This document shows, piece after piece, positions 53,403 through 63,419 of a stretch of DNA of 64,000 bases. The stretch lies in NCBI GenBank assembly GCA_900637705.1, contig LR134390.1, forward strand, positions 3,100,001 through 3,164,000. Reading direction: 5' to 3'. How positions within the stretch are numbered: the first letter of the stretch is position 1; every line of letters begins with the position of its first letter. This DNA comes from Fusobacterium varium. GTDB taxonomy: Bacteria > Fusobacteriota > Fusobacteriia > Fusobacteriales > Fusobacteriaceae. The position numbers were made by a program, and so were the translations under genes. The notes below the pieces were generated by a model, which searched no databases, was not told where the DNA came from, and worked only from the letters and a program-made list of their open reading frames with translations.

Positions 53403-53723
53403 ATGGATTTAGATTTAGAAGAAGTGGCAATGACAATAGTAGGTAATGCTGGTGAAGCAAGAAGTTTAGCTTATGAAGCATTAAGAGAAGCTAAGACTGG
53501 AAATTTTGATAAAGCAGAGGAACTTTTAAAAGAATCAAGAGAAAAATCTCTTGTAGCTCATGGAATGCAGACAGAACTTATATGTAATGAAGCAGATGGA
53601 AATGGAATAGCTATGAATCTTCTTATGGTTCATGCTCAAGACCATCTTATGAACTCAATTCTTGCTAGAGAATTAGTTGAAGAACTGATAGATGTATATA
53701 GAAGAATAGGAGTGGAAAAATAA
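53403..53723 (+). CDS. PTS lactose/cellobiose-family IIA component
   Basis: The 106-aa protein is a helical EIIA of the lactose/cellobiose family. It has GNAGEARSLAYEALREAK and the phosphorylated His in LLMVHAQDHLMNS. The ATG at 53403 is spaced 8 bases from AGGAGG; an ATG at 53397 is too close. It leads an operon of IIA, glycosylasparaginase, IIC, IIB and a peptidase. The order suggests the sugar is attached to asparagine. Confidence 0.9.
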   Translation: MDLDLEEVAMTIVGNAGEARSLAYEALREAKTGNFDKAEELLKESREKSLVAHGMQTELICNEADGNGIAMNLLMVHAQDHLMNSILARELVEELIDVYRRIGVEK

Positions 53724-54687
53724 TGAAAAAATGGGCAATGATAGCTACTTGGAGAATGGCTGTTGAAGGGGTTACTCTGGGAGCTGATATATTAAAAAAT
53801 GGTGGGAAATGCCAAGATGCTGTAGAGAGAGCAATAATGGAAGTAGAAGATTATCCCTTTTATAAGTCAGTAGGGTATGGAGGACTTCCAAATGAAGTAT
53901 GTGAAGTTGAGCTGGATGCTGCTTTTATGGATGGAAAGACACTTTCTATTGGTGCAGTAGCAGGAATAAAAGATTATAAAAATCCTGTATGTATAGCAAG
54001 AAAACTTAGTGCAGACAGATTTAATATATTTCTTGTGGGAGAAGGAGCAGAAGCTTATGCTCACAAGAATGGTTTTGTAAGACAGAATATGCTTACTGAA
54101 AGAGCAAAAAAAACTTGGGAATTAAGAATGAAAGAGATAACTGAAAAAAATCTTTCACCTTATGATGGACATGATACAGTATGTATGATAGGAATAGATT
54201 CAGAAAAAGACATGGCAGCAGCTACTTCAACAAGTGGTCTTTTTATGAAAAAAGAGGAAGAGTAGGAGATTCACCAGTATCTGGTTCAGGATTCTATGTG
54301 GATAATGAAGCTGGTGGAGCAGCAGCTACTGGACTTGGAGAAGATATAATGAAAGGGTGTCTTTCTTATGAAACAGTTCAAAGAATGAAAAGAGGAATGT
54401 CTCCTTCAGAGGCAGCGCAATCAGCAGTTGCAGATTTTTCTGAACAGTTGAAAAGAAGAAGAGGACATGCAGGAGCTATATCAGTTATAGCAATGAATAA
54501 CAAGGGTGAATGGGGAATTGGGACAAATGTAGAATTTTCATTTGTTGCAGCTGACCCAGATAATGAACCTAAAGTATATCTTGCAAATCCTGTAGAAGGA
54601 AGCAACGAAGTAAAAATAGAGATAGCTTCAAAAGAATATATGGAAGCTTACAAAAAAAACATACAAAAACCATTAGAAGAAATATAA
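53723..54687 (+). CDS. N4-(beta-N-acetylglucosaminyl)-L-asparaginase, one frameshift
   Basis: This is an Ntn-hydrolase of the glycosylasparaginase (AGA) type, which splits GlcNAc-Asn to aspartate and glucosaminylamine. The proenzyme is cut before the nucleophile Thr in SPYDGHDTVCMIGID. The substrate loop ATSTSGLFMKKRGRVGDSP is close to known AGA proteins. The frame breaks in the A run at 54248-54253; six As are present and seven restore one 321-aa protein. No signal peptide is seen, so it acts in the cytoplasm, unlike the lysosomal or periplasmic enzymes. It overlaps the IIA stop by one base. Confidence 0.87.
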
Positions 54688-57857: not shown

Positions 57858-58484
57858 CTATTTTTTTAATTTAATTTTACTTACATACAGCACCGAAAAA
57901 TCTCTAAAAATTATATTTTCCTCTTTATAGTCTATATATCTAATCAAGTCTATATTGATTATGGTTCCTCTTTCAATTTTATAAAAATTATCTATTGCTT
58001 CCAATCTTTCTTCAACAATAGAAAAGTTTTCTTTCAAAGTAAAAATTTCTTTATTAATTAAATGAAATTGAATTCTTCGTGTTGTTCGGCAGTAACTAAT
58101 ATATGTTACTTCTGAAAAATCAATAATTCCCTTTTTCTGATTATCATTTAGGTAGAATTGAGTATATTTTTGTTTAGAATGAATTAACTTTTCAATAGAT
58201 TTTTCAATTTCATATACTTCATGTCTTAAGATGCAGTCAGCAACATAATTTGATAAAAATAAAGTTCTCATTTCCCTTATATTATTTTTTCCTAAAACAA
58301 CAATAACAGGGATTCCTTTTTTGAAATTTAATTTAATCTTATCTGTAATATTTTCTGCATCAATGTCTATTATAAATATTTCAAAATTTTTATTTTCTCG
58401 TTTAGTGTTTATAAATTCATAATCCAGCATTTCTTTTAAGAGGATAATAAGTTTTTCATCTACATCTACTCCTATCTTAATCAT
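57858..58484 (-). CDS. LytTR regulator with divergent receiver
   Basis: The 208-aa protein has an N-terminal receiver-like part (about 1-110) and a C-terminal LytTR DNA-binding domain (about 115-205). The LytTR part has ISYCRTTRRIQFHLINKE, FYKIERGTIINIDLIRYID and LYVSKIKLKK, matching its typical strands. The receiver begins IKIGVDVDE instead of the usual acidic VDDE, with a possible phosphoacceptor Asp in IFIIDIDAEN, so normal phosphorylation is doubtful. The start overlaps the receptor stop by 8 bp; ATG at 58484 or TTG at 58487. It belongs with the membrane receptor. Confidence 0.75.
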   Translation of the reverse strand: MIKIGVDVDEKLIILLKEMLDYEFINTKRENKNFEIFIIDIDAENITDKIKLNFKKGIPVIVVLGKNNIREMRTLFLSNYVADCILRHEVYEIEKSIEKLIHSKQKYTQFYLNDNQKKGIIDFSEVTYISYCRTTRRIQFHLINKEIFTLKENFSIVEERLEAIDNFYKIERGTIINIDLIRYIDYKEENIIFRDFSVLYVSKIKLKK

Positions 58485-60035
58485 CAAAACTCAACTCCTT
58501 ATAAATAGAATTAAGCCTTATATTATTAGCAATACCTGCCACTTTTTCAGATATTCCTATCAAATATTTTATATTTTCAATATCCATTTCATAATCATAT
58601 TCTTCAATAAATATAGCACCAACATAAGGATTTCCATTAAATGCCAATCTTATTCCAGTTGAATAATTTTCTTTCTTTATATTTTCTTCTTTTATGAATA
58701 GACTGTTTTCACAAAAGTCTGGATCAATTAAATATTCAGAAATTTCATTTTCATCAATGAAAATTTTAACTAGAACTGATTTAGCCTTTAGGTTTTTTTT
58801 AAGTTCTTTTTCAAGTTCTTTCTCAAATTCATTTCTATTTTGTACTAAACATAATTTAGTATAAGACTTTTCAATTGTTTCATTTTTTACAAAAAGTATT
58901 TTTTCAAATACCATTGTATAAAAATCTAGAATAAATATAGTTATTAGAATAATAGCAGGCTCTAGCAAAGTTTTAAAGTAAAACAGAGTTATATAAGCAA
59001 TTGTAAATCCTAAAATATATCGAACAACTCTGCTTATGTTTGGAGTATATATTTTTAAGCTAACAAATACTAATCCCCAGTATATACACATATATTCAAT
59101 TAATTTAATAAAAGAATATAAATTAATAAACTTAGGAAAAGCAACATAAAAAAGCTCCATAAATAAATATAGGAATATAACTGAGAAATAGTAAAATTTA
59201 TGTGATAAAAGAGTGAATCTTTTATTTGCTAGTAAATTAAAAATGATAATTAATAAAATGATTCTTCTTAAATTGATAATCTGGTATATGTTTCTTAAAA
59301 AAGTTAATAAAATTTCATGAGTACTTAATATATATGTATAAATTTGTGGAGATAATAAATTTATCGCTATAAGTACATAATAAATAAAAGAAAGAGCAGA
59401 TAATATATAAATAAAGTATTTTATTTTCTTATGTTTTTCATTGATACGATTATTTAAAATATAAAATATCATTAAAAATCCAAGCATAATGGATATAAAA
59501 AATTCCATAAATTTTATAAAATCAATCTGAAAATTTCCTCTAAAGCTAAAAAGCATTTTTAAAATCAATATAAAAAAAGCTAAATTGAGTATTTTATCTT
59601 TTTTTATTTCTTTTTTTAATTTGGTGTATATAGAAATATTTAAGATTATAAGAGTTAAAGTTATTATGTTTAATGCAATTTCCTGTTTTTTTGAAAAAAT
59701 ATCACCTTGAAGAGAAACTATTATTTTTTTCCAATTGTCATCTTTTTAAAAGGAAGATACTTTTCATAGTTGTCATAATTTATTTTTAATATGTAATTTC
59801 CATTTGGAACATTGAAAAAAATTTTTCCATTCAAAAAATTTCTCATTTCAAAATTTAGATCTTTCCCATCAGAAGAAAGAATGGAATATTCACCTATATT
59901 TTTATCTAAAACCTCAATATATTTTATTTTAGGTACTACATATATAAAATCTTTTTCATTATGAGCCATAAATTTTAGAAATGTACCCAAAGAAATAACT
60001 GAAACAACTACAAATATCAATATTTTTTTATACAT
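58477..60035 (-). CDS. Multi-TM receptor with N-terminal extracytoplasmic domain and GAF-like tail, one frameshift
   Basis: The first frame encodes a membrane-anchored 104-aa domain, with an N-terminal helix (about 5-22) and a beta-rich FFNVPNGNYILKINYDNY segment. The next frame continues without a start codon for 52 codons, IIVSLQGDIFSKKQEIALNI, into a multi-helix protein. They join at the T run 59724-59730 (A run on the coding strand): seven are present and eight restore 519 aa. About nine further helices follow (about 120-376). The tail, about 420-519, has a GAF-like pattern (SVLVKIFIDEN, AFNGNPYVGAIFIEEY). No kinase domain is visible. It resembles 7TM-DISM receptors. AAAAGGAG precedes the ATG. 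Confidence 0.68.
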
Positions 60036-60371
60036 GTTTTTCTCCTTTTATGTAGAGTAATTAATAATCTCAATTAGTTATATCAACTTATTTAAAATAA
60101 GTAAAGTTTTTTCAAAAAATATAAATTTCATAATCTTTAGTAGTATTTAAAAAATATAGTTTAAAGATTAATATTAATAAATTTAATAAAATTATATTTT
60201 TGATACAATATTTTTTTGCGTAGAAAAATAATGAGTTTGTGTACTAAAAGGAATTTTTTGTTAATATTGGGCTATAATTCAAAATAGAGTTCAAAATATA
60301 GAATAATATTATTTTAAAATTTGTTAAGTTGTTATACGAAAAATAAATTATATATTTGAAGAGGAAAAATA
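60036..60371. other. Divergent intergenic region between receptor and LPS genes
   Basis: AT-rich with no gene. It should hold the promoter of the leftward receptor operon and of the rightward DUF535-GT9 pair. No clear -35/-10 pair or operator was identified. Confidence 0.4.
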
Positions 60372-60464
60372 ATGAAAATCAGTAAAACTTTATTGGAAAG
60401 AGGAGTAGAATACAAAAACATTCTAATAAATTTAATGTATAAAATAAATAGATTTAATTTTTAA
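60372..60464 (+). CDS. Possible 30-aa leader or small ORF
   Basis: ATG follows GAAGAGGAAA and encodes MKISKTLLERGVEYKNILIN then 10 more residues. It ends 26 bp before the DUF535 start. The ribosome site is good, but the length and composition could arise by chance. It may be a leader peptide or a truncated gene end. Confidence 0.3.
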   Translation: MKISKTLLERGVEYKNILINLMYKINRFNF

Positions 60465-60490
60465 TTTACATAGATAAGATGGAGGAAAAA

Positions 60491-61444
60491 TTGCAGTTTA
60501 ATTCTATTATACAAATATTACAATTATATTTTGATATTATGAAAAAAGGTAAGGGAAAAGGACAGATAAATACATTAAAAAAACAGATAAAATTTATTTT
60601 TAGAACAATAGTTTATCTGCCTTTCTCTTTACAAGTAGGAGAATTTATATTAAAACATGAAAAATTAAAAAATAATATTTTTGGTTATCCAATGCTTATT
60701 AGTAAAGTACATCGTCCATATTTAGTAAAGAACTTAAAAACAAATGAAAAAGTAAAAAGCATAATAGAAAGTTATAAATTTATAGATGCGTTTTTTCCTG
60801 TTGAATTAAATGATGAATTATATAAAAATGGAAAAATTTTATTAAGTCATTTTCCTGTTAAAGATGGTTCTTTTTATAAAATATATCTTTGTATATATAC
60901 AAATTTTGAAAAGGAAGGAGAAATTAATATAAAATTAACAGATTCATGTGAAAATATAATAGGAACTTTAACTTTTGGAATTATAAAGCAGAAAGATAAA
61001 AAAACAATATTAATTGGGGGGTTACAAGGAGCTTCAAAAGACCTGAATGAAGAATATATAAAAAACTGTACTAAAAATATGTATGGTTTATTTCCTAAAA
61101 AGCTTTTATTTGAAGCTCTTTGTTTTTTAGAAAAAGCTACAAAAATTAATTTTACAAAGGCAGCAACTGGTAATTCTACACACATATATACATCTGAAAG
61201 ATATACTTCAAGGAGAATAATTCATTCTGACTATGATTCCTTTTGGAAAACATTAAATGCTACTCAATTAGAAAATAAATTATGGTATTTTCCTAAGTCT
61301 ATAAAAAGAAAATCTTTAGAGGAGATACCGAGCAAAAAAAGAAGCCAGTATCAGAAAAGATACAATCTTCTTGATAGTATAGAAGAAGATATTTTAAATA
61401 AGTTTAAAGGAGAAGAGAATGAAAATACTGATAATACGTTTTAA
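60491..61444 (+). CDS. DUF535 (VirK/YbjX-family) protein
   Basis: The 317-aa protein matches the DUF535/VirK pattern: TLTFGIIKQKDKKTILIGGLQG, KATGNSTHIYTSERYTSRR-like sequence and the HSDYDSFWKTLNA block. Members are linked to cell envelope and host resistance traits in enterics; the biochemical role is unknown. The TTG at 60491 has GGAGG five bases upstream; an ATG at 60479 has no good site. It overlaps the glycosyltransferase by 26 bp, so the two are coupled. Confidence 0.8.
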   Translation: MQFNSIIQILQLYFDIMKKGKGKGQINTLKKQIKFIFRTIVYLPFSLQVGEFILKHEKLKNNIFGYPMLISKVHRPYLVKNLKTNEKVKSIIESYKFIDAFFPVELNDELYKNGKILLSHFPVKDGSFYKIYLCIYTNFEKEGEINIKLTDSCENIIGTLTFGIIKQKDKKTILIGGLQGASKDLNEEYIKNCTKNMYGLFPKKLLFEALCFLEKATKINFTKAATGNSTHIYTSERYTSRRIIHSDYDSFWKTLNATQLENKLWYFPKSIKRKSLEEIPSKKRSQYQKRYNLLDSIEEDILNKFKGEENENTDNTF

Positions 61445-62634: not shown

Positions 62635-63419
62635 ATGAGTGAGATATGGAATCCATGGCATGGTTGTCATAAAAAGAGTGAAGGGTGCTTAAATTGCTAT
62701 ATGTACTATTTGGACGCCCAAAGAGGACAGAAAAGCGATACAGTATACAAGGTAAAAAATAACTTTAATCTTCCTTTAAAAAAGGATAGAAAAGGGAATT
62801 ATAAAATAAAAAAAGGAACTCTTCTCTATACTTGTATGACTTCAGATTTTTTTTAGAAGAAGCTGATGAATGGAGAAAAGAGATATGGGATATGATTCGT
62901 ATTAGAACTGATATTTTTTTCTGGATATTGACTAAAAGACCAGAAAGAATAGAAAAGATGCTTCCTTCTGATTGGAATAACGGGTGGGATAATGTGTGTA
63001 TAAATGTTACAATTGAAAATCAAAAGAGAGCAGATGAGAGAATACCAATTCTTTTAAAGCTGCCATTTAAGTACAAAGGAGTAGTAGCAGCTCCTATTTT
63101 AGAAAGTATAAATATAGAAGAATATTTGAAAACAGGAATAATAAATGATGTAAGTGCCAGTGGAGAAAATTATGCAGGAGCCAGAATTTGCGATTATGAT
63201 TGGATAAAAAGCCTCTACGAACAGTGTAGAAAATATGATACAACTTTTAATTTTTTTGAAACAGGAGAGCATTTTATAAAAGATGGGAAAAAATATCATA
63301 TTCCTAAAAAACTACAAAGGGAGCAGGCAGAAAAATCAGGATTGAATTATAAGGGCAAGAGTTCATCAATGATACTAAAAGAAATAGTTGAAGATGAACA
63401 GATGAAATTATTTGACTAA
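62635..63419 (+). CDS. DUF5131 (Gp37/Gp68) family protein, one frameshift
   Basis: The 261-aa protein has WNPWHGCHKKSEGCLNCYMY, a Cys motif related to radical SAM enzymes, and DIFFWILTKRPERIEKMLP and ASGENYAGARICDYDW. The family occurs in phages and bacteria; its role is unknown. The frame breaks in the T run 62847-62854, where eight Ts are present and nine restore one protein through TSDFFLEEADEWRKE. GGAGAAAAA precedes the ATG. Confidence 0.8.

Follow-up and report, generated by a model that had tools for sequence, protein, structure and literature searches.

Operons in which a membrane protein without a kinase is encoded together with a LytTR regulator are known as LytTR Regulatory Systems (LRS), and they have been characterised only in Streptococcus mutans, as HdrRM and BrsRM (PMC6193735). 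The LRS regulators lack both a receiver domain and the phospho-acceptor Asp, the membrane proteins are of small size and contain DUF3021 or DUF2154, though not universally, and the operons have 9-bp direct repeats with a spacer of about 12 bp just upstream of the -35 element (PMC6193735). We analysed a window of 64,000 nucleotides (bases 3100001-3164000) of the single-contig 3.30 Mb genome of Fusobacterium varium (LR134390.1, here G000). One locus in this window resembles HdrRM and BrsRM in being a two-gene operon with a kinase-less membrane partner and a LytTR regulator (PF04397 above the cut-off). It differs from them in that the Fusobacteriota regulator has a ComE-like receiver with an invariant Asp, the sensor is a protein of about 519 aa with nine transmembrane (TM) segments and of no known family (DUF3021 and DUF2154 were unmatched in 12 homologues), and no direct repeats were recognisable at the pair. 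Because two defining LRS features fail, we did not class the pair as an LRS. The LRS-like operons of Bacteroides also have a membrane protein gene preceding the LytTR gene, but their regulator is itself membrane-spanning and its partner has NfeD-like/DUF2154 domains (PMC6193735). We regard the pair as a conserved, as yet uncharacterised form of LytTR signalling without a kinase. The original prediction of a kinase-less receptor coupled to a LytTR protein holds, and by annotation the pair lies outside the standard two-component scheme, but the claim of newness does not hold, since such operons were already described (PMC6193735).

The sensor gene is split in the window into ORFs of 104 aa and 363 aa in different frames, both of which were matched by A1, a profile built from intact sensor homologues. 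The 104-aa ORF (59721-60035, minus strand) encodes an N-terminal TM helix and a small extracytoplasmic domain; it matches residues 1 to about 97 of intact 519-aa homologues, and its final residues are out of frame. The remainder lies in another frame (58477-59746, minus strand) and encodes the end of the extracytoplasmic domain, eight predicted TM helices and a cytosolic tail of about 135 aa. The listed 363-aa ORF within it (58477-59568, minus strand) has a TTG start, and ORF analysis agreed with the prediction that the frame is open upstream of this first start codon, up to the break. A ribosome-binding site, AAAGGAG (60043-60049, minus strand), precedes the sensor start. The LytTR regulator gene (57858-58487, minus strand; 208-209 aa) overlaps the sensor gene by 11 nt, and this overlap is identical in G001 and G002, the genomes of the two closest relatives, whose sensors are 87% identical to the window copy. 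In both relatives the intact orthologue has exactly 519 aa, the full length that had been predicted from the window by adding one base. The gene is thus split as first proposed, but the break is not at 59724-59730. The register shifts upstream of this A-run, with the frame lost at about 59740-59760 (minus strand), because the conserved KDDNWKK motif is by then read in the frame of the downstream part.

The sensor gene had been thought hidden by a frameshift, and this is so only in this assembly. In all, 29 distinct homologues are intact within a single ORF; among 61 relatives searched, 14 genomes had homologues, mostly in one unbroken frame of 516-583 aa, and the F. varium genome itself has an intact paralogue with 52% identity. 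The original prediction took only the sensor gene as broken and missed that the LytTR gene also ends early: in alignment with G001 and G002 it is clipped by a second frameshift and stops at 208 residues, and the genes of both relatives run about 14 codons further. From the sequence comparisons, the single-base losses in both genes are most likely uncorrected homopolymer errors in the assembly. About 39 kb of the window could be aligned with G001, and within the G001 genes there were 10 frame-changing indels (in 9 genes), each of them the loss of one base on the window side, most often within or next to a homopolymer, with no counter-examples. In the control comparison of G001 with G002 there were 4-6 events, split evenly between both. 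Both breaks in the pair are at or near A-runs, and the sensor homologues in G009 and G092 are interrupted too, at different sites in the gene, which would be consistent with biological frameshifts, either in a pseudogene or as a run-length slippage (phase variation) switch in this strain. The one-sided direction of the losses argues against this, as do the dN/dS values against G001 and G002, which are 0.20 upstream of the break, 0.10 downstream of it and 0.07 in the LytTR gene. These values are about the same as those between the two intact relatives, so that purifying selection is undiminished on both sides of the break. Since constraint is not relaxed across the break, an old pseudogene is disfavoured, and we regard biological frameshifts as very unlikely. 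Programmed -1 frameshifting at the A-run was rejected, because the break is upstream of the run, the relatives are intact without a frameshift and many window genes have a similar single-base loss. Further window genes split by such losses relative to G001 or G002 include 53723-54687 (a split isoaspartyl-peptidase-like gene), 62832-63419, genes at 14.4-15.7 kb and 23.4-25.0 kb, and others. Unpolished homopolymer errors would be expected to leave such a pattern. Most of the frameshifts seen in this assembly are probably technical, and other findings of this kind in the window are suspect.

Family-averaged hydropathy predicts for the sensor one N-terminal TM segment, about 97 residues outside the membrane, eight further TM segments and a cytosolic tail of about 135-137 residues, and this topology is in accord with the positive-inside rule throughout, judged by the Lys and Arg residues in the loops. 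As predicted, the sensor shows no kinase: Pfam and NCBIfam gave no significant match in the window fragments, 12 full-length homologues and 24 tails (E up to 10). Searches of the sensor against Pfam, NCBIfam and PDB families gave no match, and neither the LytS 5TM domain nor AgrC domains were matched by Pfam or NCBIfam in the window fragments and the 12 homologues. In its extracytoplasmic beta-rich domain, multi-TM core and cytosolic output the sensor is like the 7TMR-DISM proteins (PF07695), by analogy only, but it is without a Pfam match, has nine and not eight TM segments and lacks a catalytic output domain. PF07695 was absent from the sensor homologues and had no match in the F. varium genome either, and a 7TMR-DISM identity was rejected on these grounds. 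The tail had been described as GAF-like, which it may or may not be: none of the four methods applied gave a significant match. GAF had no Pfam or PDB sequence match in the tail, the hhalign probability was 2% (a GAF-GAF control itself reached only 12%), and GAF appeared at rank 24 (E 0.5) in a Foldseek search with a poor model of the sensor. This model, built from four sequences, had a pLDDT of 55 and gave no fold supporting a contact surface; its Ig-like Foldseek matches (E > 0.07) were set aside. The distant homologues L057, L058, L072 and L077 have a helical C-terminal extension of about 50 aa beyond the tail. By eye, in alignment A5 only, this extension recalls a degenerate kinase dimerisation hairpin whose histidine is missing; the idea had no profile support and was rejected.

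The regulator carries a predicted LytTR DNA-binding domain at residues of about 120-208 (57861-58127, minus strand), which matched PF04397 with 29.6 bits against a cut-off of 22.6 and which corresponds to the AgrA LytTR structures. PF04397 was also matched by 14 of 15 homologues. Residues of about 1-105 (58170-58484, minus strand) form a receiver-like domain, with a predicted ComE-type fold and an atypical active site according to an AlphaFold2 model and the alignment. The model, made for the partner regulator of Fusobacterium mortiferum (pLDDT 78), gave full-length ComE (4cbv, E 4.8e-11) as the top Foldseek match, followed by AgrA LytTR domains. The receiver-LytTR architecture is thus like that of ComE, AgrA and LytR, but the Fusobacteriota partner is not a histidine kinase and the active site is degenerate except for the Asp and a basic residue. 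All 31 partners have the Asp of the acceptor position (D40, codon at 58365-58367, minus strand), which lies at the C-end of beta-3, and all 31 have Arg or Lys at the usual Lys position (R/K89). Most of the same partners have Gly in place of the Ser/Thr, and their acidic pair is only partial. An altered receiver without a normal acceptor had been proposed; the altered active site is upheld, with the Ser/Thr and the full acidic pair missing, but the acceptor Asp is present. By alignment and model, the regulator is an atypical receiver that retains its Asp.

A profile search of 98 Fusobacteriota species detected sensor genes in 27 genomes, which belong to 7 genera, and one more sensor genome (G080) was reached through the neighbourhood of a DUF535 gene, giving at least 28 of the 98 species. 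The LytTR gene is directly 3' of the sensor gene on the same strand at all 34 loci, which answers the earlier question of whether the pair is conserved. Across these loci the gap between the two genes is -74 to +1 nt, and such short or negative gaps suggest translational coupling. The pairwise distances of sensor and regulator are correlated (Mantel r 0.92, 0 of 5000 permutations), and both also track species descent. A scan of a public genome collection with profile A1 returned only Fusobacterium mortiferum and Cetobacterium (loci L047-L049), and a scan of plasmids for the sensor returned only Cetobacterium somerae, in which the protein is annotated as 'hypothetical protein'. Conservation in at least 28 species makes the pair more than a chance association. 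A chance neighbourhood of two unrelated genes, with the 'receptor' being a transporter or an enzyme, would fit a membrane protein that has no characterised homologue, but the co-location at 34 of 34 loci across genera and the retention of two paralogous pairs in one genome make this reading extremely improbable.

The divergent neighbour of the pair in the window is a gene of the DUF535 (VirK/YbjX) family (60479-61444, plus strand; PF04393, E 8e-75), a candidate target, and a heptosyltransferase-like gene comes after it. DUF535 is present in only 19 of the 98 species. Of the 13 genomes with both, 9 have no more than 3.5 kb between DUF535 and the pair; these 9 come from 5 genera and 2 families, and simple arithmetic gives about 0.1 as the expectation for random placement. 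An autotransporter of about 1000 aa with an S8 protease is encoded directly next to the pair, in divergent orientation, in F. mortiferum-type and g8 loci and in some Cetobacterium loci; elsewhere this place is taken by TraT, an outer-membrane barrel or MipA. In a second Cetobacterium clade the pair lies between a 2-oxoacid-oxidoreductase-like (Kor-like) operon and an amino-acid ABC transporter, and some loci adjoin unrelated genes (thiamine, nuclease, helicase, the Kor-like operon with the amino-acid transporter). We favour control of the envelope or cell surface as the output, because the pair is linked to DUF535, autotransporter proteases and TraT. A VirK of the DUF535 family in Klebsiella is located in the outer membrane and controlled by PhoP (PMC13109725). 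A link to the PTS had been suggested, but the PTS and peptidase genes downstream adjoin the pair only in the closest relatives, and we found no evidence for the proposed sugar or peptide ligand. Other DUF535 genes were noted at L064 3354-4235, L078 6076-6642 and L133 4826-5758; in the Fusobacteriota, DUF535 genes form clusters either with the pair or with genes related to glycans and LPS, and G016 and G028 have two tandem copies with no recognisable pair nearby.

The divergent intergenic region of the window (60036-60478, 443 bp) has no barrel gene, unlike G001 and G002, where a gene for an outer-membrane barrel separates the sensor gene from DUF535; this barrel gene is split in G001. The elements TTTACT and TATAAC, 17 nt apart (60077-60105, minus strand), were read from the alignment as a candidate promoter for the pair, which is conserved in G001 and G002; a consensus scan leaves it out because its second hexamer ends in C. 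Its spacer contains a palindrome, ACTTATT-N3-AATAAGT (60086-60102, minus strand), conserved in G000, G001 and G002. The exact palindrome occurs once in each of these three genomes, always at the candidate promoter of the pair, which rules out a regulon-wide operator in this exact form. As far as the sequence goes, it may be an autoregulatory site or a site of another factor. Direct repeats of the LytTR type were not recognised upstream of most sensor genes, in a simple scan that was mostly at chance level and may miss degenerate repeats in AT-rich DNA, or in the alignment of the close relatives.

Of the four LytTR genes in the F. varium genome, one is next to a LytS-type kinase (G000:C1:2842178/2843183) and the other three are next to membrane proteins without a kinase. 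The genome has two PF06580 kinases, each adjoining its own response regulator, and none is unpaired. A third, more divergent pair lies at G000:C1:2518871-2521079 (locus L092) and consists of a 481-aa membrane protein (P0001) and a LytTR protein (P0002). P0002 is related to the regulators of the family (hhalign 98%); for P0001 and the sensor the hhalign probability is 38%, which is suggestive only, and the alignment spans the tail. The L092 membrane protein is 95-97% conserved in close relatives, and the pair adjoins a methionine gamma-lyase-like gene and a transporter.

Our preferred reading, to which we give a probability of about 0.5, is that the two genes are a conserved unit in which the membrane sensor signals to the LytTR regulator by direct contact and so tunes surface genes. 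The membrane protein would sense an envelope or extracellular condition, and the signal would pass through contact of the sensor tail (or the TM core) with the receiver-like domain of the partner. The sensor would thereby hold or release the LytTR protein, which would then bind DNA at the promoter of the divergent neighbour and at its own promoter. The surface genes tuned in this way would vary by lineage, among them DUF535, the S8 autotransporter protease, TraT and outer-membrane barrels. We infer the direct contact, the direction of control (inhibition or activation), the targets and the ligand. Contact between tail and receiver is the most economical route because the partner has no kinase and both LytS-type kinases have their own adjacent response regulators. 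Points that weigh against this reading are the Asp and the basic residue kept in all 31 partners, the lack of recognisable repeats upstream of the sensor genes, the poor sensor model and the loci that adjoin unrelated genes.

Phosphorylation in trans is the main rival to contact signalling, because the Asp never varies. The regulator would then be an orphan response regulator in which D40 receives its phosphate from acetyl phosphate or from a kinase whose gene lies elsewhere, with the membrane protein modulating this step or acting as a co-sensor. The basic residue at the usual Lys position in every partner and the ComE-like fold of the regulator are in keeping with this, but the Gly at the Ser/Thr position, the incomplete acidic pair and the placement of both kinases of the PF06580 class beside their own response regulators argue against it, and we consider it possible but doubtful. 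A strict LRS inhibitor, in which the membrane protein sequesters the regulator and its release sets off positive feedback by way of direct repeats in the promoter of the operon, shares with the pair its two-gene logic, the lack of a kinase and the LytTR output (PMC6193735). It is at odds with the receiver-like domain and its Asp and with a membrane protein that is far larger than and unrelated to the DUF3021/DUF2154 proteins, and no upstream repeats were recognised; this reading is unlikely. A bolder form of contact signalling can be put forward tentatively: the pair might represent a Fusobacteriota-specific signalling class in which a nine-TM protein, possibly a former histidine kinase that has lost its catalytic half, steers a receiver-LytTR regulator by contact alone and adjusts the cell surface, the invariant Asp having a structural or binding role and not one in phosphorylation.

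If direct contact between the sensor and the LytTR protein is the true mechanism, kinase-free LytTR control would extend to the Fusobacteriota, with an unrelated, larger receptor and a regulator that bears a receiver. How a receiver domain can be driven without a kinase would then become directly testable, and the pair would be a candidate for controlling the surface proteins of fusobacteria that live in the gut or are associated with fish.
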